64,000 nt of DNA, taken from the NCBI RefSeq assembly GCF_000364625.1, contig NZ_KB822606.1:1-64000 (forward strand), written 5' to 3'. Of this stretch, positions 5,139 to 42,837 are shown in pieces. Position numbers and translations under genes: made by a program. Origin of the DNA: Pseudomonas thermotolerans DSM 14292. Lineage in GTDB: Bacteria; Pseudomonadota; Gammaproteobacteria; Pseudomonadales; Pseudomonadaceae. Numbering within the stretch: the stretch's first letter is position 1; each line of letters begins with the position of its first letter. A model generated the notes under the pieces. That model ran no database searches. It had not been told where the DNA came from and saw only the letters and a program-made list of their open reading frames with translations.

Positions 5139-7589
5139 TCAGGCGGGTTCCAGCTGCTTGAGGGGAATGCGGTCGAATTCCTGCTTCAGATGCGGGGTCT
5201 CGAGGCGTTCCTTCCACGGGTCCCGCTCCAGCGAAAGCGCGTAGTGCAACCGCGCGGCCAGCTCCTTGCGGTTCTCGGCGTCCTCGAGCACTGCCTTCCT
5301 GACGTGCTCCATGCCGACCCGCTGCAGGTAGTGGACGGTGCGCTCCAGGTAGAAGGCTTCCTCGCGGTACAGCTGCAGGAAGGCGGCGCTGTATTCGCGG
5401 ACTTCCTCGGCGCTCTTGAGCTTGACGAAGAATTCCGCCACTTCGGTCTTGATGCCGCCGTTGCCGCCGACGTACAGCTCCCAGCCGGAGTCCACGCCGA
5501 TGATGCCGATGTCCTTGATGCCGGCCTCGGCGCAGTTGCGCGGGCAGCCGGAGACCGCCAGCTTGACCTTGTGCGGCGACCACATGTTGAACAGATCGTG
5601 CTCCAGGTCGATGCCCAACTGGGTGGAGTTCTGGGTGCCGAAGCGGCAGAACTCGCTGCCCACGCAGGTCTTCACGGTGCGTATGGACTTGCCGTAGGCG
5701 TGCCCGGAGGGCATGTCCAGATCCTTCCAGACCTTCGGCAGGTCCTCCTTCTTCACCCCCAGCAGGTCGATGCGCTGGCCGCCGGTGACCTTGACCATGG
5801 GCACCTGGTACTTCTCCGCCACGTCGGCGATGCGCCGCAGCTCGGCCGGGGTGGTGACCCCGCCCCACATGCGCGGTACCACCGAGTAGGTGCCGTCCTT
5901 CTGGATGTTGGCGTGGGCGCGTTCGTTGATCAGCCGCGACTGCGGGTCATCCTTGGCCTCACCCGGCCAGGTGGAGATCAGGTAGTAGTTGAGCGCCGGG
6001 CGGCAGGTGGCGCAGCCGTTCGGCGTGCTCCAGTCCATGAAGCGCATGGCCTCGGCCATGGAGGTCAGGTGGTGCTCGCGGATCGCCTGGCGCACCTGGC
6101 CGTGGTTCAGCTCGGTGCAGCCGCACACCGGCTTCTCGCTCTTCGGCTTGACGTCCGCCGCACCGCCCACGGTGCTGATCAGGATCTGTTCCACCAGCCC
6201 GGCGCAGGAGCCGCAGGAGCTGGCGGCCTTGGTATGCCTCTTGACCTCGTCCACGGAGAACAGACCGTTCTCCTGAATGGCCTTGACGATGGTTCCCTTG
6301 CACACCCCGTTGCAGCCGCACACCTCGGCGCTGTCCGGCATGCTGGCGGCGCTGTTCTGGCCCTGGTGGCCGACGTCGCCCAAGGCGCTCTCGCCGAACA
6401 TCAGGTGATCGCGGATGCCGGCGATGTTGGCGTTCTCGCGGATCTGCCGGAAGTACCAGCCGCCGTCGGCGGTGTCGCCGTACAGGCAGGCGCCGACCAG
6501 CACGTCGTCCTTGATCACCAGCTTCTTGTAGACGCCGCCGATGGGGTCGGAGAGGGTGATGGTCTCGGTGCCTTCGCCGCCCATGAAATCGCCGGCGGAG
6601 AACAGGTCGATGCCGGTGACCTTGAGCTTGGTGGAGGTCACCGAGCCGCGGTAGCTGGCGAAGCCGAGCTGCGCCAGGTGGTTGGCGCAGACCTTGGCCT
6701 GCTCGAACAGCGGGGCCACTAGGCCGTAGGCGATGCCGCGGTGGTTGGCGCATTCGCCCACCGCGTAGATGCGCGGGTCGTAGGTCTGCAGGGTGTCGTT
6801 GACCAGGATGCCGCGGTTGCAGGGCAGCCCGGCGCGTTCCGCCAGCTCGGTGCTGGGGCGGATGCCGGCGGCCATCACCACTAGATCGGCGGGAATCACC
6901 TCGCCGTTCCTGAACTTTACGGCGCAGACTCGGCCGTCGCCGTTGTCCAGCAGCTCCTCGGTCTGCTCGTTGAGGCGGAAGCGGATGCCGCGTTCCTCCA
7001 GGGCGCCCTGCAGGAGCTTGCCGGCGGTGCGATCGAGCTGGCGCTCCAGCAGCCAGTCGGCGATGTGCACCACGGTCACGTCCATGCCGCGCTGCTTGAG
7101 GCCGTTGGCCGCCTCCAGGCCAAGCAGGCCGCCGCCGATCACTACCGCATGGCTGTAGGTCCTGGCGGCTTCCATCATCAACTGGGTGTCGGCGATGTCG
7201 CGGTAGCCGATCACGCCATCCAGGCGGTTGCCGGGGATCGGCAGGATGAAGGGGGTGGAGCCGGTGGCCAGCAGCAGACGGTCGTATTCCGCCTCGCTGC
7301 CGTCCTCGGCGTAGACCTTGCGCGCGCGGCGGTCGATCTTCACCACCTTACGGCCGAGCAGCAGCCGGATGCCGTTGTCCGCATACCAGTCGAGGTCGTT
7401 GAGCACGATGTCCCCGAAGGTCTGCTCGCCGGCCAGCACGGGGGAGAGCAGGATGCGGTTGTAGTTGGGGTGCGGTTCGGCGCCGAACACGGTGATGTCG
7501 TAGAGATCGGGGGCGACCTTGAGCAGTTCCTCGAGGGTGCGCACCCCGGCCATACCGTTGCCGACCATGACCAACTTGAGCTTTTTCAT
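5139..7589 (-). CDS. nirB: Nitrite reductase (NADH) large subunit
   Basis: Six-electron reduction of nitrite to ammonium in the cytoplasm. The 816 residues contain an FAD/NAD pyridine-nucleotide oxidoreductase module (about 1-390), two BFD-like [2Fe-2S] domains with CGCNGVCKG and CGSC, then CGC and CATC (about 410-530), and a siroheme/[4Fe-4S] nitrite-sulfite reductase domain with TCVGSEFCRFG and SGCPRNCAEAG. The frame is open 9 codons further upstream, but the start at 7589 gives the normal N-terminus (MKKLKLVMVGNGMAG) and has GGAG. It is the first gene of the nirB-nirD-nasC-cobA series and is preceded by the ANTAR-type leader described separately. Confidence 0.96.
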   Translation of the reverse strand: MKKLKLVMVGNGMAGVRTLEELLKVAPDLYDITVFGAEPHPNYNRILLSPVLAGEQTFGDIVLNDLDWYADNGIRLLLGRKVVKIDRRARKVYAEDGSEAEYDRLLLATGSTPFILPIPGNRLDGVIGYRDIADTQLMMEAARTYSHAVVIGGGLLGLEAANGLKQRGMDVTVVHIADWLLERQLDRTAGKLLQGALEERGIRFRLNEQTEELLDNGDGRVCAVKFRNGEVIPADLVVMAAGIRPSTELAERAGLPCNRGILVNDTLQTYDPRIYAVGECANHRGIAYGLVAPLFEQAKVCANHLAQLGFASYRGSVTSTKLKVTGIDLFSAGDFMGGEGTETITLSDPIGGVYKKLVIKDDVLVGACLYGDTADGGWYFRQIRENANIAGIRDHLMFGESALGDVGHQGQNSAASMPDSAEVCGCNGVCKGTIVKAIQENGLFSVDEVKRHTKAASSCGSCAGLVEQILISTVGGAADVKPKSEKPVCGCTELNHGQVRQAIREHHLTSMAEAMRFMDWSTPNGCATCRPALNYYLISTWPGEAKDDPQSRLINERAHANIQKDGTYSVVPRMWGGVTTPAELRRIADVAEKYQVPMVKVTGGQRIDLLGVKKEDLPKVWKDLDMPSGHAYGKSIRTVKTCVGSEFCRFGTQNSTQLGIDLEHDLFNMWSPHKVKLAVSGCPRNCAEAGIKDIGIIGVDSGWELYVGGNGGIKTEVAEFFVKLKSAEEVREYSAAFLQLYREEAFYLERTVHYLQRVGMEHVRKAVLEDAENRKELAARLHYALSLERDPWKERLETPHLKQEFDRIPLKQLEPA

Positions 7590-7622: not shown

Positions 7623-7663
7623 AAAAAAAGGCGTCCTGCCGGTTGCCCAGCAAGGACGCCTTT
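7623..7663 (-). terminator. Leader terminator of the nirB operon
   Basis: On the minus strand an 11-bp stem (AAAGGCGTCCT/AGGACGCCTTT) with a 15-base loop is followed by a run of seven T, ending 33 bases before the nirB start. Its place between promoter and gene, not behind a gene, marks it as an attenuator. Confidence 0.85.
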
Positions 7664-7669
7664 GTCCAG

Positions 7670-7709
7670 TCCCGATCGGTCGGGAAGTGCCCCCTCGCCA
7701 TTGAGGGGG
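7670..7709 (-). promoter_or_regulatory. Tandem hexaloop leader RNA (ANTAR/NasT target) of nirB
   Basis: Read on the minus strand, two stem-loops with six-base loops stand 4 bases apart. P1 (7709-7690) is CCCCCTC/GAGGGGG closing the loop AATGGC. P2 (7685-7670) is TCCCG/CGGGA closing the loop ACCGAT. Both loops have A at position 1 and G at position 4, the signature known for RNA targets of ANTAR antiterminators such as NasT, NasR and EutV. The leader terminator starts 6 bases after P2. I infer NasT control by nitrate. NasT and NasS are not encoded in the window. Confidence 0.8.
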
Positions 7710-7738
7710 ACGCTTTAGTGCATTGTCGAGAGGATTAC

Positions 7739-7754
7739 TGCACGGGCTGTGCCA
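7739..7754 (-). promoter_or_regulatory. Sigma-54 (RpoN) promoter of the nirB operon
   Basis: The minus strand reads TGGCAC-AGCCC-GTGCA, differing from the -24/-12 consensus (TGGCAC-N5-TTGCA) at one base. It predicts a transcript start near 7728, about 19 bases before the first leader hairpin. Inverted half-sites TGCACC (7817-7822) and GGTGCG (7848-7853) lie 90-125 bases upstream and could be NtrC half-sites, but neither is a full palindrome. Confidence 0.75.
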
Positions 7755-7862
7755 ACTTTCCCAGAGACGGATTTCCGGGCCCGGCGAGGAGGGATTGGCG
7801 GTTTGCGCGGGAAAAGTGCACCAGATCGAGGCATGGGGCGTTGTCGTGGTGCGTTTTCGCCG

Positions 7863-7894: not shown

Positions 7895-8503
7895 TCAGCG
7901 GCCGGCCGCGGCCTGGGTAGCGGTCCAGTCGATCAACTGGCGGGCCAGGCGTTCGCTGGCCTGGCCGAAGGCGGCGACCACCGCTTCGAGCTGCTCTCCG
8001 TCGCTCGGCTGGTGCACCTCGAAGCGGCGGCTGGCGAGGATGCGTTGCGAGCCGCTGCTGGCCAGGTGAGCGTCGTAGCGGATCACCACCACCGGGCGGC
8101 CGTTCCGGTACTCGGCCTGGAAAGCCGCCAGGCTGCCCTGCAGGTCCAGGTCGGTCAGCAGGTGCTGGTCGTCGCTGCTCACCGTGGTGAAGCGGCCGTC
8201 ATCGATGAACAGTTCCACCAGGCGGTCGCGCAGCAGCGCCGGGGCCTCGTCGCTCCAGCGTGCCCCCTTGTAGCTGCTCAGCTGGCTGCCGGCGGGGATC
8301 ACCGCGATGCGTGTGCTGGAGAGGATCATGCTGGCCCGCGGACGGCTGATGCGCAGCGCGCGGTCGATTTTCGTCGTGGAGGCGGGCGGCAGGCTGGCGG
8401 CGGGCAGCAGGTAGACCTGCACCGGCTCGGCCTGGGGTAGGAGGGTACAGGCGGTGAGGGCGAAGGCGAGGCCCGCCAGGGCCAGGTAGCGGCCGATGCT
8501 CAT
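7895..8503 (-). CDS. PqiC-type ABC transport auxiliary lipoprotein
   Basis: The 202-residue protein has an N-terminal signal with a lipobox (LTACT, Cys near residue 19) and the ABC-type transport auxiliary (PqiC/YmbA) domain. In the Pqi system this family sits in the outer membrane and works with an MCE protein spanning the periplasm. Its start codon overlaps the MCE gene stop (ATGA at 8503-8500), so translation is probably coupled. It is the last gene of the STAS-MlaE/ATPase/MCE operon. I recall the PAO1 orthologue as PA3214, in another chromosomal place. Confidence 0.85.
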   Translation of the reverse strand: MSIGRYLALAGLAFALTACTLLPQAEPVQVYLLPAASLPPASTTKIDRALRISRPRASMILSSTRIAVIPAGSQLSSYKGARWSDEAPALLRDRLVELFIDDGRFTTVSSDDQHLLTDLDLQGSLAAFQAEYRNGRPVVVIRYDAHLASSGSQRILASRRFEVHQPSDGEQLEAVVAAFGQASERLARQLIDWTATQAAAGR

Positions 8504-9438
8504 GGTGCGAACTCCTTGATCTCCTGGCTGCCCTGTAGAAGGCTGCCGGGGTTTTCCGAAAGGTGGCGGGTCAGGCGCTGCAGTGCGGTGAGGGTGCTGC
8601 GCAGCTCGGCGATTGCCGGACCCAGCTCGCCGAGGCTTTGCAGGCCGCCGTCCACGGCGCCCTGGTTGCGCTCGATGATCTCGTCTAGGCGGGCGCTGCT
8701 GCGTTCCAGGGCGGCCATGGTCTGCGCCGCGCTGTCGAGAATGCTGCGGCCCTGCCGGTCGACCAGGCTGTTGGCGTTGTGCATCAGCTCGGCGGTCTCC
8801 TTCAGGGCGATGCCGGCCTGCCGGCTGACCTCGGTGAGCTGCTCCAGGGTCTGCTGGATGCCGTCGCGCTGCTCGGCCAGCACGCTGGTGGCCTGCTCGA
8901 GGTTCTCCAGGGTGCGGCCGATGCGTTCGATGTTGCTCCGCGAGAACATCCGGTTGGCGTTGAGGATCAGCCGGTTGATGTTGCTCACCAGGTCCTCGCC
9001 GTCGGCCAGCAGGCGCGACAGTGGCGAGCGGTCGGCGATGATCACCGCCGGCTTGTCGTCGTGGCTCTTCAGCGGCGGACTTTTCGGCGAGCCGGAGTAG
9101 AGCTGGATCACCGCCACCCCGGTGATGCTGGTCAGCGCCAGGCGGGCGCGGGTGTCCTCCTTGATCGGGGTGTCGCTGCCGACCCGGATGCGCGCCCGCA
9201 CCTTGCGCGGGTCGCGCGGATCCAGCTTGAGCTGCTCCACGTCGCCGACCTTGATGCCGCTGTACTGCACGGCGCTGCCCACCGACAGGCCGGTCACCGC
9301 CTCCTCGAAGACCACCTCGTAGGTGTCGAACTCCTTGTCCACGCTGGACTTGCCCAGCCAGAGGGCGAAGAGCAGTGCGCCGCTCACCGCGAGGACTGTG
9401 AAGAGGCCGATTAGGACGTGATGCGCACGGGTTTCCAT
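8500..9438 (-). CDS. MCE (MlaD-like) periplasmic lipid-binding subunit
   Basis: The 312-residue protein has one N-terminal transmembrane helix (about 8-28), an MlaD/MCE domain (about 38-120, with GLSVGSAVQYSGIKVGDV) and a long C-terminal helical region rich in Leu/Glu/Gln that should form a coiled coil or tube. MCE proteins carry lipids between inner and outer membrane. The frame is open 24 codons further upstream, but the start at 9438 overlaps the ATPase stop (TGATG), has GGAG, and gives the usual N-terminus. Confidence 0.9.
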   Translation of the reverse strand: METRAHHVLIGLFTVLAVSGALLFALWLGKSSVDKEFDTYEVVFEEAVTGLSVGSAVQYSGIKVGDVEQLKLDPRDPRKVRARIRVGSDTPIKEDTRARLALTSITGVAVIQLYSGSPKSPPLKSHDDKPAVIIADRSPLSRLLADGEDLVSNINRLILNANRMFSRSNIERIGRTLENLEQATSVLAEQRDGIQQTLEQLTEVSRQAGIALKETAELMHNANSLVDRQGRSILDSAAQTMAALERSSARLDEIIERNQGAVDGGLQSLGELGPAIAELRSTLTALQRLTRHLSENPGSLLQGSQEIKEFAP

Positions 9439-10220
9439 CAATGTTTCTCCTGCCGGGCGGCATATTCCGCGGCGCGACCGCGCGGGCCGTGGAAGTATTC
9501 GCGAATCCACGCGTCGTCGGTGGCTTCCACCACCTCGAGGCGATCGGCGACCAGCACGCGCTTCTGGGACAGTACGGCGACCCGGTCGCAGATGCTGTAA
9601 AGGGTGTCGAGGTCGTGGGTGACCAGGAAGACGCTCAGCCCCAGGGCGTCGCGCAGGGTGAGGATCAGCTGGTCGAAGGCCGCCGCGCCGATCGGGTCGA
9701 GGCCGGCGGTGGGCTCGTCGAGGAACAGGATCTCCGGATCCAGGGCCAGGGCGCGGGCCAGGGCGGCACGCTTGATCATCCCGCCGGACAGGGAGTCCGG
9801 GTACTTGTCGCCGGCATTCGCCGGCAACCCGGCCAGGGCGATCTTGACCCGTGCCAGGCGTTCGGCGGAGGGGCGGTCCAGGCCGGCGTGCTCGATCAGC
9901 GGTAGGGCCACGTTTTCGATCACGGTCAGTGAGGAGAACAGGGCGCCGCGCTGGAACAGCACGCCGAAGCGCCGTTCCAGCCGGGAGCGGCTCTCGGGGG
10001 ACAGAGCCAGCAGGTCTTCGCCGAACACCCGCACGCTGCCGGCTGCCGGACGCAGCAGGCCGACGATGCTGCGCAGCAACACCGACTTGCCGGTGCCGGA
10101 GCCGCCCACCACGCCGAGGATCTCGCCGCGGCGGATGTCCAGGTCGAGGTTGTCGTGCACCACCTGCGGGCCGAAGCGGTTGACCAGCCCGCGCACCTGC
10201 ACCAGCACTTCGCCGCTCAC
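9438..10220 (-). CDS. MlaF-like ABC transporter ATPase
   Basis: The 260-residue ATPase energises the adjacent MlaE-type permease. It has Walker A GGSGTGKSV (about residues 38-46), signature LSGGM (about 144), Walker B EILFLDEPTAGLDP and the H-loop THD. The start codon is GTG overlapping the permease stop (GTGA at 10220-10217), with GGAG upstream. It is the second gene of the four-gene operon. Confidence 0.93.
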   Translation of the reverse strand: MSGEVLVQVRGLVNRFGPQVVHDNLDLDIRRGEILGVVGGSGTGKSVLLRSIVGLLRPAAGSVRVFGEDLLALSPESRSRLERRFGVLFQRGALFSSLTVIENVALPLIEHAGLDRPSAERLARVKIALAGLPANAGDKYPDSLSGGMIKRAALARALALDPEILFLDEPTAGLDPIGAAAFDQLILTLRDALGLSVFLVTHDLDTLYSICDRVAVLSQKRVLVADRLEVVEATDDAWIREYFHGPRGRAAEYAARQEKH

Positions 10221-11356
10221 CAGCCCATCTCCATGAAGAACAGCGCTGCCAGGGCGTCCAGGAGGATCACCACGAAGATCGACTGCACCACGCTGGAGGT
10301 GGTGTGGTCGCCGACCGACTTGGCGCTGCCGCTGGCCTTGAAGCCTTCCAGGCAGCCGATGGTGGCGATCAGGAAGGCGAACAGCGGCGCCTTGACCAGG
10401 CCGATGAAGAAGTGCCGCACCGGGATGTCGGACTGCAGCACCGAAAGGAACATGGCCGGCGATACGTCGAGCATCAGGGTGCTGACCAGGCCACCGCCGA
10501 CGATGCCGCAGAGCATGGCGATGAAGGTTAGGATCGGCAGGCTGATCAGCATCGCCAGCAGGCGCGGCAGGACCAGCAGCTCCATGGGATCGAGGCCCAG
10601 GGTGCGGATGGCGTCGATCTCCTCGTTGGCCTTCATCGAGCCGATCTGCGCGGTGAAGGCGCTGGCCGTACGCCCGGCCATGAGGATGGCGGTGAGCAGC
10701 ACGCCGAACTCGCGGAGAAAGGAGAAGGCCACCAGGTGCACGGTATACAGGGTGGCGCCGAAGTCGGCGAGCACGGTGGCGCCGAGGAAGGCCACCACGG
10801 CGCCGACCATGAAGGTCAGCAGGGCGATGATCGGGATGGCGTTGAGGCCGACCTGCTCCAGGTGCGCCACCAGCGAGGTGATCCGCCAGCGGCGCGGACG
10901 CGGCAAGGTGCGCAGCAGGCTCTCCAGGCTCAGGCCGATGAAGCCGAGCAGGGCCTTGGCCTGCCGGCCGAACTCGCTGACCACGTCGCCGATGTGACCG
11001 AGCACCTCCACCACCGCCGGCCCGGCCGGCTCGCCGGGAGTGCCCGGGCAGCCGCGCAGCGCGGCAACCACGGTGCGCAGCAGGGCCAGGCGCTCGGCGG
11101 GCAGCCCCGGGGTGTGGCTGGCCACTTCCAGCAGACGCTCCTCGCCCAGCCAGCGGCCGAGCAGGGCGGCGCCGGCGGTGTCCAGCTGGCCCAGCTCGGC
11201 AAGATCCACCTCGGCCTGGCGGCCGGTCTCGCCCAGCGGCGACTCGTCGATCAGCGCACGCAGCCGCACGTAGTGGGCCAGTGTCCAGTCGCCGCGGATG
11301 CGCAGACGGGGTGGGGTGGTTGCAGTTTCCAGTTCGAGGGTGCCCGGTTGTGGCAT
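10217..11356 (-). CDS. MlaE-family permease with N-terminal STAS domain
   Basis: The 379-residue inner-membrane protein joins a STAS-like domain (about 1-95) to an MlaE/YrbE permease domain with five or six hydrophobic helices (about 135-375), including the family stretch VGAVVAFLGATVL and the RTASAFTAQIG coupling region. Pseudomonas Mla proper has MlaB as a separate STAS protein, so here the two functions are fused. It is the first gene of a tightly overlapping operon with ATPase, MCE and lipoprotein genes. Confidence 0.92.
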   Translation of the reverse strand: MPQPGTLELETATTPPRLRIRGDWTLAHYVRLRALIDESPLGETGRQAEVDLAELGQLDTAGAALLGRWLGEERLLEVASHTPGLPAERLALLRTVVAALRGCPGTPGEPAGPAVVEVLGHIGDVVSEFGRQAKALLGFIGLSLESLLRTLPRPRRWRITSLVAHLEQVGLNAIPIIALLTFMVGAVVAFLGATVLADFGATLYTVHLVAFSFLREFGVLLTAILMAGRTASAFTAQIGSMKANEEIDAIRTLGLDPMELLVLPRLLAMLISLPILTFIAMLCGIVGGGLVSTLMLDVSPAMFLSVLQSDIPVRHFFIGLVKAPLFAFLIATIGCLEGFKASGSAKSVGDHTTSSVVQSIFVVILLDALAALFFMEMGW

Positions 11357-11454: not shown

Positions 11455-13164
11455 TCAGGCGAGCAGCCAGACCGCCAGGGCCAGGTTGACCAGCAGGGAG
11501 ACCAGCGCCACGCCGCGCCAGACCTTCAGCGGTTCGTGCTCCAGCAGCGGACGCGGGTGCTCATCCAGCGTGCGGCGTTCGCCCTGCTCGAGGTCCAGCA
11601 GCCACTGCTCGGCGGTTTCGTAGCGTTGCGCCGGGTCGGTGGCCAGGGCGCGGTTCAGGCAGGCGTCGAGCCAGGCCGGCAAGTCGGGGCGATAACGGCT
11701 GGCCGGGGTGGGCTGGCCGAAGCGCGGATGCTGGAAGGGCTCGATCTCGCCGTAGGGATAGTGGCCGGTGAGCAGGTGGTAGAGGGTCACCCCAGCGGCG
11801 TAGAGGTCCTGTTGCGGTCCCGGTGCGGCGCCGGCGAAGGCCTCCGGGGCGATGTAGCTAGGCGTGCCGGGCAGGCTGTGGGGCTCGTCGCGGGACAGCC
11901 CGGGGCAGTAGGCGAGGCCGAAGTCCAGCACGCGCAGCTCGCCGTCCTCGCCCCACAGCAGGTTTTCCGGCTTGATGTCGCGGTGCAGCAGGTTGCGCCG
12001 GTGCAGCATGCCCAGCGCGCGGAGCAGGCGCGGGGCCAGTTCCAGCCAGTCGGCCAGGGCTAGGGGGCCGTGCCGGTGCAGGTGCTCGGCGAGGGTCTGC
12101 CCGGGGTATTCGCGCTGTACGTAGTAGAGATGCTGGCGCTGCGGCAGCGGAGGCAGTTCGGGGAAATGGCGGCCGGCGACCCGGCGCAGGAACCATTCCT
12201 CCAGCAGCAGCGCCGGACCGGCCTGGGGCTCGTCGGCGCGGCCGGGCGGCAGGGTCTTCAGCAACCAGGCGCGCCCCAAGGCGTCATGCACCCGGTAGAC
12301 CAGCGACTGGCGGGTCTCGTTGAGCAGACGTTCCACCTGCCAGCCCTCGAAGGTCTGTCCGGGGCGCAGCTTCGGCGGCAGCGGCCAGTGGTCGAGCTGC
12401 GCCAGGGTGTCGCCGAGGTCGGCCTCCGGCAGGGCGTCGACCGACACCAGCAGGGCGCTGGCGTTGTCCTGGCTGCCGGCCAGATGGGCGGCGCTGACCA
12501 GAGCCTGGCAGGCGGCCTGGGGTTCCTCGGTGTCCTCCAGGATGTGGCGGATGCCTGCGTCGCCCAAGGTCGCCCAGACGCCGTCGCTGACCAACAGGAA
12601 GTGCTCGCCAGCATGCAGTTCGCCGTCCAGGTAGTCGACCACCAGGTGCTGGTCGAGGCCCAGGGCGCGCTTGAGCACGTGCTGCATGCCCGGCTGTTCC
12701 CAGACGTGATCCTCGCTGAGGCGCTGCAGCTCGCCGGCCAGCCAGCGGTAGGCGCGGCAGTCGCCGACGTGCGCCAGGGTGAAGCGCCGGCCGCGCAGGA
12801 CCAGCGCGGTGAGGGTGGTGAGTAGCGGCTGGCCGCCGCCGTTGGCGCGCAGCCAGCGGTTGTGGGCGACCAGCAGGCGCTCCAGGGACTGCGCCACCGT
12901 CCAGGTTTCCGGGGTGGCGTAGTAGTCCAGAGCCAGTGCCTGGAGGGTCGCCCGCGCCGCCAGGCCACCGTCGGCGCACTGGCTGACGCCGTCGGCGAGG
13001 GCGAACAGGTAGCCCTTGGTGGCTGCCAGGGCCGGCGTCGGGGTGACCACTCGCAGAGCATCCTGGTTCTCCGCGCGGGGGCCGCTGGCGCTGGCCTCAC
13101 CAATGCGCAGACGCAGGCAGGGCGGCGGCCCCGCGCTGCCCGGCGCCTGGCTTTCGGGGCGCAT
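11455..13164 (-). CDS. PP2C-type phosphatase fused to Ser/Thr protein kinase, membrane anchored
   Basis: The 569 residues hold opposing activities in one chain. The PP2C phosphatase (about 10-240) shows ENQD, ADGVS, HVGDCRAYR, SDGVW and SQDNAS. The Hanks-type kinase (about 255-525) shows the lysine in LLKTL, HRDIKPENLL and DFGLA. A single hydrophobic helix at 546-568 ends the protein, so the catalytic parts should be cytoplasmic and anchored. It starts 8 bases after nasA on the same strand, with only a weak binding site, so it is probably translated from the nasA transcript. I recall the same arrangement in PAO1 (PA1782-PA1783). The substrate is unknown; control of nitrate uptake is a guess from position. 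Confidence 0.92.
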   Translation of the reverse strand: MRPESQAPGSAGPPPCLRLRIGEASASGPRAENQDALRVVTPTPALAATKGYLFALADGVSQCADGGLAARATLQALALDYYATPETWTVAQSLERLLVAHNRWLRANGGGQPLLTTLTALVLRGRRFTLAHVGDCRAYRWLAGELQRLSEDHVWEQPGMQHVLKRALGLDQHLVVDYLDGELHAGEHFLLVSDGVWATLGDAGIRHILEDTEEPQAACQALVSAAHLAGSQDNASALLVSVDALPEADLGDTLAQLDHWPLPPKLRPGQTFEGWQVERLLNETRQSLVYRVHDALGRAWLLKTLPPGRADEPQAGPALLLEEWFLRRVAGRHFPELPPLPQRQHLYYVQREYPGQTLAEHLHRHGPLALADWLELAPRLLRALGMLHRRNLLHRDIKPENLLWGEDGELRVLDFGLAYCPGLSRDEPHSLPGTPSYIAPEAFAGAAPGPQQDLYAAGVTLYHLLTGHYPYGEIEPFQHPRFGQPTPASRYRPDLPAWLDACLNRALATDPAQRYETAEQWLLDLEQGERRTLDEHPRPLLEHEPLKVWRGVALVSLLVNLALAVWLLA

Positions 13165-13172
13165 GGCCTGGC

Positions 13173-14384
13173 TCACACCCGCGCGGCGGTGACCGCGGCG
13201 CTGCCCCAGGTGGTGCGCCAGCGCTGCTTGACACCGTGCAGGCCGAACCAGGCCAGTACGCCGAGGCTGGCGAACAGCCAGAGACCGAGCTGGTAGTCGC
13301 CAGTGTGCTGCTTGATGGCGCCGAGGCCGGCGGTCAGGCAGAAGCCGCCGATCCCGCCGGCCATGCCGATCAGCCCGGTCATCACCCCGATCTCGCGGCG
13401 GAAACGCTGTGGCACCAGCTGGAATACCGCACCGTTGCCGGCGCCCAGGCTGAGCATGGCGATCACGAACAGGGCCAGGGCGGCACTGGCGCTGGGCAGG
13501 TTGAAGCCCACCGCGGCGATGCAGATGGCCGCCGCGGTGTACATCACCAGCAGCGAGCGGATGCCGCCAATGCGGTCGGCCAGGGCGCCGCCGAGCGGGC
13601 GCATCAGGCTGCCGGCGAACACGCAGGCGGCGGTGTAGTAGCCGGCCTTCACCGGGTCGAAGGCGTACTGGTCGTGGAAGTAGCCGGGCAGGGTGCTGGC
13701 CAGGCCGAGGAAGCCGCCGAAGGTCACGCTGTAGAAGAACATGAACCACCAGCTGTCGCGGTCGCCGAGGGCCTTTAGGTAGTCGCCCAGTGGCTTGGGT
13801 GCCGGACGTTGCGGGGCGTTGCGGGCGGCGCCGGCGAAGATCGCCAGGGCCAGCAGCAGCGGGATCAGCGCCAGGCCGAACACGTTGCTCCAGCCGAACA
13901 GGCTGGCCAGGCTGGGGGCGAACAGGGCGGCCAGCACGGTGCCGGAGTTGCCGGCGCCGGCGATGCCCATGGCCTTGCCCTGGTGCTGCGGTGGGTACCA
14001 CTGGGAGGCCAGCGGCAGGGCGACGGCGAAGGAGGCACCGGCGACGCCGAGGAACAGGCCGAGCAGCAGCGCCTGGGCGTAGCTGTGCACGCCCAGCAGC
14101 CAGGCGGCGAGCAGGGCGCCGATGACGATCACCTGGCCGATCAGCCCGGCGCTCTTCGGCGAGGTACGGTCGGCCAGCAGGCCCATCAGGAAGCGCAGCA
14201 CGGCGCCGGAAAGGATGGGCGTGGCGACCATCATCGCCCGCTGCTGGGTGCTCAGGCCGAGGTCGGCGGCGATCTGCACGCCCAGCGGGCCGAGCACGTA
14301 CCAGATCATGAAGCTGAGATCGAAGTAGAGAAACGCGGCGAACAGGGTGGGCTTGTGTCCGGCCTTCCAGAAACTGGTATTCAT
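13173..14384 (-). CDS. nasA: Nitrate/nitrite MFS transporter (NarK/NasA type)
   Basis: The 403-residue protein is a twelve-helix major facilitator of the nitrate/nitrite porter family, with family-like segments such as GAGNSG (helix 5 region) and GAGNG (helix 10-11 region). It should import nitrate for the NasC/NirBD pathway encoded nearby. The frame is open 78 codons further upstream through the leader, but the start at 14384 has a perfect GGAGG site and a normal N-terminus. It is preceded by the RpoN promoter and ANTAR-type leader and followed after 8 bases by the kinase-phosphatase gene. Confidence 0.93.
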   Translation of the reverse strand: MNTSFWKAGHKPTLFAAFLYFDLSFMIWYVLGPLGVQIAADLGLSTQQRAMMVATPILSGAVLRFLMGLLADRTSPKSAGLIGQVIVIGALLAAWLLGVHSYAQALLLGLFLGVAGASFAVALPLASQWYPPQHQGKAMGIAGAGNSGTVLAALFAPSLASLFGWSNVFGLALIPLLLALAIFAGAARNAPQRPAPKPLGDYLKALGDRDSWWFMFFYSVTFGGFLGLASTLPGYFHDQYAFDPVKAGYYTAACVFAGSLMRPLGGALADRIGGIRSLLVMYTAAAICIAAVGFNLPSASAALALFVIAMLSLGAGNGAVFQLVPQRFRREIGVMTGLIGMAGGIGGFCLTAGLGAIKQHTGDYQLGLWLFASLGVLAWFGLHGVKQRWRTTWGSAAVTAARV

Positions 14385-14542: not shown

Positions 14543-14605
14543 AAACGACAAAGACGCCGCACGCCCATTCGCCTCGTGGCGAAGGGCATGGCGACGTCTT
14601 TGTCG
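14543..14605 (-). terminator. Leader terminator hairpin of nasA
   Basis: On the minus strand an 11-bp outer stem (CGACAAAGACG/CGTCTTTGTCG) encloses a long imperfect inner hairpin with a UUCGCC/GGCGAA apex, followed only by TTTCG. The 5' arm contains the whole P2 antiterminator hairpin (14605-14592), so the two structures exclude each other. The U tract is short, so termination strength is uncertain. Confidence 0.7.
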
Positions 14606-14634
14606 TGGGTGGAGGCAACCGCCGTTGGTTACCC
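14592..14634 (-). promoter_or_regulatory. Tandem hexaloop leader RNA (ANTAR/NasT target) of nasA
   Basis: Read on the minus strand, P1 (14634-14613) is an 8-bp stem GGGTAACC/GGTTGCCT with the loop AACGGC. After 7 bases, P2 (14605-14592) is CGAC/GTCG with the loop AAAGAC. Both loops have A at position 1 and G at position 4, as in known ANTAR-protein targets. P1 starts about two bases after the predicted transcript start. NasT binding should hold P2 and so block the terminator. Confidence 0.82.
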
Positions 14635-14646
14635 TACCGGCGGATC

Positions 14647-14662
14647 AGCAAGAAGCAGGCCA
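14647..14662 (-). promoter_or_regulatory. Sigma-54 (RpoN) promoter of nasA
   Basis: The minus strand reads TGGCCT-GCTTC-TTGCT, keeping the invariant GG at -24 and GC at -12 with correct spacing. The predicted start (about 14636) is right at the foot of the first leader hairpin. Between here and 14775 (the remaining 112 bases upstream) I see no gene and no clear activator site. Confidence 0.7.
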
Positions 14663-42320: not shown

Positions 42321-42384
42321 AGTGCCGGGATGCCGAAGTCGGGTTCCGGCCACTCTCTTCGCTGAATATCAGGAGGAAACCATG
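42321..42384 (+). promoter_or_regulatory. ROSE-like RNA thermometer of ibpA
   Basis: The 5' leader has a first hairpin closed by GUG-CCGG/CCGG-CAC (42322-42353) and a second in which UCGCU (42359-42363) can pair with AGGA of the ribosome binding site (42371-42374) across the loop GAAUAUC. A U(U/C)GCU anti-Shine-Dalgarno element is the hallmark of ROSE thermometers, known for small heat-shock genes, including P. aeruginosa ibpA. Confidence 0.75.
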
Positions 42385-42837
42385 AGCAACGTACTTTCCC
42401 TGGCTCCGCTGTTCCGTCAATCCGTCGGCTTCGACCGTTTCAATGATCTGTTCGAGGCGGCGCTGCGCAATGGCGAGGCCACGTCCTATCCGCCCTACAA
42501 CATCGAGAAGCACGGCGATGACCAGTACCGCATCGTGGTCGCGGCCGCCGGCTTCCGGGAAAGCGACCTGGAGCTGCAGGTCGAGCGCGACGTGCTGACC
42601 GTGAGCGGCGGCAAGCGCGACAAGGGCGACGAAAACGTCACCTATCTGCACCAGGGCATCGCCCAGCGCGCCTTCAAGCTGTCCTTCCGCCTCGCCGACC
42701 ATATCGAGGTCAAGGGCGCGTCGCTGCAGAACGGTCTGCTGAGCATCGAGCTGCAACGCATAGTGCCGGAAGAGGATCGGCCGAAACGCATCCCGATCAA
42801 CACCACCATCGAGCGGCCGGCGTTGGAAAACGACTAA
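42382..42837 (+). CDS. ibpA: Small heat-shock protein (Hsp20/IbpA)
   Basis: ATP-independent holdase. The 151-residue protein has an alpha-crystallin domain (about 35-130) with YNIEKHGDDQYRI at its start and the ending ...GLLSIELQR, and a C-terminal IPI-type motif (RIPIN). AGGAGG precedes the start. A sigma-32 promoter and a ROSE-like leader stand upstream, so control is at both transcription and translation. Confidence 0.95.
   Translation: MSNVLSLAPLFRQSVGFDRFNDLFEAALRNGEATSYPPYNIEKHGDDQYRIVVAAAGFRESDLELQVERDVLTVSGGKRDKGDENVTYLHQGIAQRAFKLSFRLADHIEVKGASLQNGLLSIELQRIVPEEDRPKRIPINTTIERPALEND

Follow-up and report, generated by a model that had tools for sequence, protein, structure and literature searches.

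The window, by which is meant the whole stretch of 64,000 nucleotides that was analysed, carries on its minus strand a nasA gene (13173..14384) for a NarK-family nitrate/nitrite transporter of the MFS type (TIGR00886, 317.9 bits against a cut-off of 311.7) and, after it, a gene in which a PP2C phosphatase is fused to a Ser/Thr kinase (11455..13164, minus; PF13672 and PF00069). The kinase-phosphatase gene begins 8 nt past nasA by coordinates, exactly as the original prediction had it, and from the sequence it is plausible that this gene is placed under the control of the nasA leader. It is found downstream of nasA in 79 of 80 named loci, the exception being L109, and a NirB match falls within the fetched locus in 66 of the 80; the NirB query set, which also served the P11 loci discussed below, included one misframed NirB record. 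Farther along the minus strand lies nirB (5139..7589), encoding the large subunit of assimilatory nitrite reductase (TIGR02374, 948.5 bits), with a leader of its own. Genes for an MlaE-like permease, an ABC ATPase and MlaD (8500-11356, minus) separate the kinase gene from the nirB leader, and elsewhere in the window there is a match to the Rfam heat-shock RNA thermometer ROSE_3 (42324-42387, plus, 57 bits).

Read along the minus strand, the nasA leader consists of a sigma54 promoter, a hairpin P1, a hairpin P2, a terminator and a TTT run, followed by nasA. The promoter, a -24/-12 element of the RpoN type with the sequence TGGCCTGCTTCTTGCT (GG-N10-GC; 14647..14662, minus), was predicted before nasA and is found there; it is backed by its sequence, by its conservation and by the presence of an rpoN gene in the genome. 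Counting from the C of the -12 element at 14648, the predicted start is recomputed to about 14636 (14635 in the original prediction), 2 nt ahead of P1. P1 (14613..14634, minus) is the anticipated 8-bp hairpin, GGGTAACC-AACGGC-GGTTGCCT, with a G-U outermost pair and an A1/G4 hexaloop at 14626-14621. Seven nucleotides further on comes P2 (14592..14605, minus), likewise foreseen, which closes the A1/G4 hexaloop AAAGAC with four pairs, CGAC and GUCG. The bases of P2 double as the 5' arm of an intrinsic terminator hairpin (14546..14605, minus; -48.1 kcal/mol and z -8.6 by folding), the 3' arm of which ends at 14546. The 11 Watson-Crick pairs that had been proposed for its stem are present, but the stem is longer, with 15 pairs before the first interruption. 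Mutual exclusion of P2 and the terminator, the core of the earlier proposal, agrees with the folds: the 47-nt nascent RNA (14637-14591) folds into exactly P1 and P2 (z -1.9), and the stretch 14663-14533, which includes promoter bases, folds into P1 and the terminator without P2 (-71.6 kcal/mol, z -6.5).

The T-rich tract after the stem, TTTGTCGTTT (14543..14552, minus), is weaker than in nearly all relatives scanned, as the original remark on a short U tract implied. Its longest T run is 3, among the weakest in a scan of 80 leaders, the window's and those of 79 relatives, of which 77 have a run of at least 4; a T score of 3 or less is given to three leaders, those of the window, L068 and L117, and the low score of L117 reflects a misplaced end, its tract having 8 T. 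The terminator stem and the T tract overlap because the AAA and CGAC of P2 pair with that tract. Directly 3' of the tract there is a GC hairpin, P3 (14526-14539, minus), in which a CCCC/GGGG core is accompanied by outer pairs that vary in many nasA leaders. It was considered as a third ANTAR hairpin of the nasA leaders and dropped because its loop length varies from 4 to 8, these lengths coming from a rough scan in which some rows were misplaced. Long nasA leaders contain a further hairpin, P4 (14496-14519, minus; stem GGAGCG/CGCTCC in the window), near whose top GATCC recurs and whose stems, by inspection, seem to differ among species.

How unusual this arrangement is was judged by scanning both strands of the 64 kb for an A1/G4 hexaloop with a stem of at least 6 pairs, followed by a second with a stem of at least 4 that overlaps an arm of at least 9 pairs. 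Two places were found, the nasA leader and the nirB leader, and none in each of 10 shuffles that preserved 2-mers within 1-kb blocks. The promoter pattern is not rare alone: its loose form TGGC-N8-TGCW occurs 20 times in the window against 8.7 expected, the strict form TGGC-N7-TTGCW twice, and its weight lies in its place and conservation, not in its rarity. A scan for NtrC sites upstream of the promoter gave no convincing candidate, the best in the window scoring 9 of 12 at -199; among the relatives, 31 of 79 upstream regions score at least 9 of 12 against about 18% of shuffles, only a mild excess.

The element has an Rfam counterpart. The narK RNA model RF03032 matches promoter, P1 and P2 (14591..14661, minus) with 68.3 bits against a gathering score of 43.2, and the match spans all 72 model positions. 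Positions 1-15 of the model, GGCaCAgcucUUGCU, are a sigma54 -24/-12 promoter; the single hairpin that it draws, with loop AACGGC, is P1; and its last 16 positions, ACGACAAAGACGUCGC, are P2, drawn unpaired. Because the promoter lies within it, the model combines an antiterminator with DNA that should itself stay untranscribed. Model and leader are the same element, the model beginning inside the promoter and stopping before the 3' arm of the terminator. Rfam lists RF03032 as type Cis-reg and names no ligand, protein or regulator; the nasA leader is thus already catalogued, though not there as an ANTAR leader. Outside the family it is scarce: a match at E 1e-5 or better is present in 4 of 274 Gammaproteobacteria genomes, two of which are Pseudomonadaceae, and therefore narK RNA is, at that sensitivity, mainly a Pseudomonadaceae element.

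Conservation was followed in the 80 named nasA loci. Only the NasA protein was used to gather them, and their selection was therefore independent of the leader. Of the 80, 79 retain promoter, P1 and P2; L109 (Stutzerimonas urumqiensis) still has the promoter and P1 and has lost P2. The promoter takes the form TGG[C/T]-N8/9-[G/T]C in the 79 relatives, and its distance to the P1 loop is 34-39 nt in 78 of these; the remaining value, 27 in L083, is due to a false loop match, the true loop AACGGT lying, by eye, at 37. This narrow range of spacing puts P1 at the very start of the predicted RNA. An alignment of nasA leaders was made from 75 relatives and the window (76 leaders, leaving out four exact duplicates and L109, which has no P2), and a wider one from 39 hand-picked rows (26 of the 79 nasA leaders, 12 other narK loci and the window, leaving out L083, whose P1 start was mis-set). 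In the 76 leaders the P1 loop has A1 and G4 without exception, and the P2 loop has G4 in all and A1 in 75.

The covariation sought in the leader alignment is present in P1 and almost absent from P2. Double changes occur in 5 of the 7 P1 pairs among the 76 leaders (6 of 7 in the wider alignment) and in none of the 4 P2 pairs (1 of 4 in the wider one), P2 being nearly invariant, with 98.4% of its cells paired in the 76 leaders. Low covariation is expected of P2, because its bases also serve the terminator. Counted over P1 and P2 together, the 76 leaders contain 50 double-change cells, where shuffles average 11.4 and slid pairings give no more than 18. Two measures do not exceed the shuffles of this alignment, 182 of 500 having at least as many double-changed pairs (5) and 455 at least as many further pair types (14); the excess is confined to cells, score and percentage paired, and related sequences alone can yield it. 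In the wider alignment the double-change cells number 55 (11.7 in shuffles) and the further pair types 26 (16.7 in shuffles), and none of 500 shuffles reaches either figure. The terminator pairs in 91.5% of cells over the 76 leaders and contains one compensated pair, G-C in 48 and A-U in 28; its double-change pairs and pair types are not above the shuffles (reached by 302 and 426 of 500). The support that the sequences lend to P2 consists of its invariance, the identity of its loop and the one compensated terminator pair.

A candidate partner for these loops is encoded in the genome. It has a single ANTAR protein, of receiver-ANTAR architecture and 192 aa, directly after a binding protein of the NMT1_2 family; judging by the family layout, we take the former to be NasT and the latter NasS. 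The best solved relatives of NasT by sequence are 1s8n (a putative antiterminator) and 6wsh (a response regulator), then AmiR, and it also matches 4akk, a nitrate regulatory protein that is presumably NasR. In Pseudomonadaceae, narK RNA is found in 190 of 248 genomes (177 over the gathering score) and ANTAR genes in 203, which include all 190, leaving 13 ANTAR-bearing genomes with no narK match. For NasT itself, 185 genomes have both, 5 narK RNA only, 3 NasT only and 55 neither (Fisher p 2.6e-45, a value overstated by the relatedness of the genomes); since NasT and narK RNA share ancestry inside one family, the co-occurrence does not amount to 248 independent trials. The best E-values of the five genomes with narK RNA only range from 5.5e-6 to 1.9e-4, and judging by the printed scores these matches should fall below the gathering score; in three of the five, the listed ANTAR match belongs to an open frame of 430-452 aa and in this differs from NasT.

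The second place found by the scan coincides with another Rfam family. The nirB leader (7630..7766, minus) matches RF00625, sRNA P11, with 109.2 bits, and the match ends 40 nt ahead of the nirB start codon at 7589. The P11 consensus has the sigma54 element GUUGGCACAagcaCUGC near its start, and in the window the parts are a sigma54-like promoter (7754-7739), P1 with loop AATGGC (7709-7690), a middle hairpin (7685-7670), P2 with loop AAAGGC (7667-7654) and a terminator at about 7663-7627, all on the minus strand. P11 thus has the same promoter type, P2 and terminator layout as the nasA leader in the same window and differs by the extra hairpin between P1 and P2; the spacing between these is 22 nt, and the linker is itself a hairpin. 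The P11 family was surveyed in 30 of the 37 listed places, a set that includes the window's own locus. nirB follows P11 directly in all 30 (true-frame matches from residue 1 in 29 rows, the window's nirB being assigned by TIGR02374), and 21 have a kinase match no more than 1.5 kb upstream. P2 reads GGAC-AAAGGC-GTCC in all 30, and P1 has A1/G4 and at least 4 pairs in 19, the others having shorter or broken stems. The middle hairpin of the window can be drawn with ACCGAT as a hexaloop or with CCGA closed by an A-U pair. Twenty-two of the 30 loci can form a 6-nt loop here; 19 of these 22 loops have A1 and G4, while positions 2 and 3 vary; the A1/G4 hexaloop is the best hairpin by score in 14 of the 30, and in 5, including the window, a 4-nt loop with an extra A-U pair scores better. 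Many nirB leaders may therefore represent a variant form that carries three A1/G4 hexaloops in tandem.

A third leader, before nasS-nasT (L002; G000:C15:23216-23290), gives 36.7 bits with the narK model, under the gathering score. It has TGGCATATCGCTTGCT, a P1 whose loop is AACGGC, and TTTTTT after its terminator; its P2 loop, by eye, starts with G instead of A, and the P2 hairpin is not the best state of its fold, which makes it the weakest of the three. A promoter-free P1-P2 model, trained on sequences that included the window's nasA leader and the nasS leaders of other genomes and left out the nirB leaders and this genome's own nasS leader, ranks nasA (57.4 bits), nirB (24.2) and nasS (22.7) at the top of the genome. 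With matches inside long open frames reaching 21.2 and 21.1 bits, score is no stronger an argument for the nirB and nasS leaders than their position, promoter and terminator. The next matches were rejected as additional ANTAR leaders of this genome, since they fall within such frames. Other genes preceded by narK elements in relatives encode a molybdopterin oxidoreductase, a PilJ-domain protein, PilJ-HAMP-PAS sensors and, in one case, a protein that is porin-like by eye and has no Pfam match; the elements before PilJ-domain, PilJ-HAMP-PAS and porin-like proteins are at L165, L166, L167, L169 and L170 (Pfam was applied to L165, L167 and L169, with no match for L169). These five elements suggest a wider NasT regulon, and the leaders of genes other than nasA keep mainly the two hexaloop hairpins.

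Among characterized systems, the ANTAR leaders of eutP, nasF and amiE, as described in the available part of PMC3369931, likewise have two A1/G4 hexaloop hairpins with P2 overlapping the terminator. For the E. faecalis eut leaders the same part gives linkers between P1 and P2 of 5-12 nt, a range that includes the 7 nt of the nasA leader, and states that in eutP linkers of 3 nt and 14 nt both cut induction. Unlike those three, the nasA leader has NasT with NasS as its probable regulator, a sigma54 promoter and a P1 at the predicted 5' end of the RNA. A close known counterpart is NalA, the leader of nirBD in Pseudomonas, which according to the accessible portion of a review (PMC12830290, citing Romeo 2012 and Nie 2024) is transcribed from a sigma54 promoter and released through NasT; it shares with the nasA leader the sigma54 promoter and a terminator hairpin and has the NtrC and NasT control that is proposed for nasA. 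NalA precedes nirB, whereas the RF03032 leader precedes nasA, and the counterpart of NalA in the window is P11 at 7766-7630, an assignment that the account in this review fits. Among the literature matches listed, which mostly leave subscription papers uncovered and so are weak evidence of absence, the parts available contain no statement that narK RNA or P11 is an ANTAR leader.

The nasA leader is very probably a sigma54-dependent antitermination leader under the control of NasT. The textbook ANTAR layout claimed for it at the outset is borne out by its anatomy, its conservation, the covariation of P1, the co-occurrence with ANTAR genes and NasT and the Rfam match; beyond these, we infer the start site, the participation of NtrC, the binding of NasT and the direction of control. 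Under nitrogen limitation, RpoN and an activator presumed to be of the NtrC type would start transcription about 2 nt before P1. When nitrate is absent, NasS would hold NasT, as is known from Paracoccus, and the nascent RNA would pass into the long terminator, with a stop before nasA. Nitrate or nitrite would free NasT to grip the A1/G4 loops of P1 and P2, and a P2 so held would occupy the 5' arm of the terminator, allowing the polymerase to read through to nasA and on into the kinase-phosphatase gene. An equivalent switch would stand before nirB, as the P11 element, and in a weaker form before nasS-nasT. Binding of NasT to nasA leader RNA is reported for Paracoccus in the part of PMC3795266 that was accessible.

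Other explanations account for pieces of this pattern. A sigma54 promoter followed by a constitutive attenuator or partial terminator, which lowers nasA expression and involves no ANTAR protein, would suit both a terminator that is strong by folding and a T tract that is weak here; we consider it improbable, given that it leaves unexplained why A1 and G4 of the loops are invariant, why P1 carries double changes, why the spacing from promoter to P1 stays at 34-39 nt and why NasT co-occurs. Still less probable is a metabolite-binding riboswitch. The filing of narK RNA as Cis-reg with neither ligand nor protein would accommodate one, but the element comprises just two short hairpins with no large conserved pocket, an ANTAR gene is present in all 190 genomes that have narK RNA, and it is mainly the two hexaloop hairpins that the leaders of other genes keep. 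Equally hard to credit is the view that P1 and P2 are a DNA operator for another regulator and that the terminator is incidental: the inverted repeat at 14546-14605 is long, and its opposite strand gives a weak narK match (17.1 bits), yet the P1 stem changes on both sides instead of preserving a fixed operator sequence, and P1 and P2 lie downstream of the predicted start.

With NasT-controlled antitermination as the preferred reading, the mechanism itself is known and the nasA element is new in detail. Two Rfam families and the literature on the nirBD leader probably describe the same switch, and we lean, with some reserve, towards regarding narK RNA (RF03032) and P11 (RF00625) as one kind of element, sigma54 promoter DNA fused to an ANTAR leader bound by NasT. 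Rfam lists RF00625 as a Gene and not as a leader. If the two are of one kind, P11 would in the main be nirB 5' leader RNA that ends at the terminator (NalA RNA), and not a trans-acting sRNA; deleting the whole annotated P11 would remove the nirB promoter and so act in cis, and short P11 would be most abundant where sigma54 is active but nitrate is absent. The available part of a paper on learned avoidance in C. elegans (PMC12080996) describes P11 as regulating the nitrogen assimilation operon and cites work in which its loss lowers ammonia; in a 2026 study, in the portion accessible (PMC13086519), overexpression of P11 or of seven other sRNAs caused no significant change in nitrite accumulation in denitrification. 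A cis-acting leader would fit both reports, though the latter assay concerns denitrification and not assimilation.

The proposed reading assigns a likely function and a likely protein partner to an RNA motif for which the Rfam listing gives neither, and it points out that two Rfam models include promoter DNA. The place and shape of P11 as the nirB leader make specific tests possible of the claims about P11 as an sRNA read by worms. For the biology of these bacteria, it would tie nasA, nirB, nasST and the kinase-phosphatase gene into one nitrate-gated regulon.
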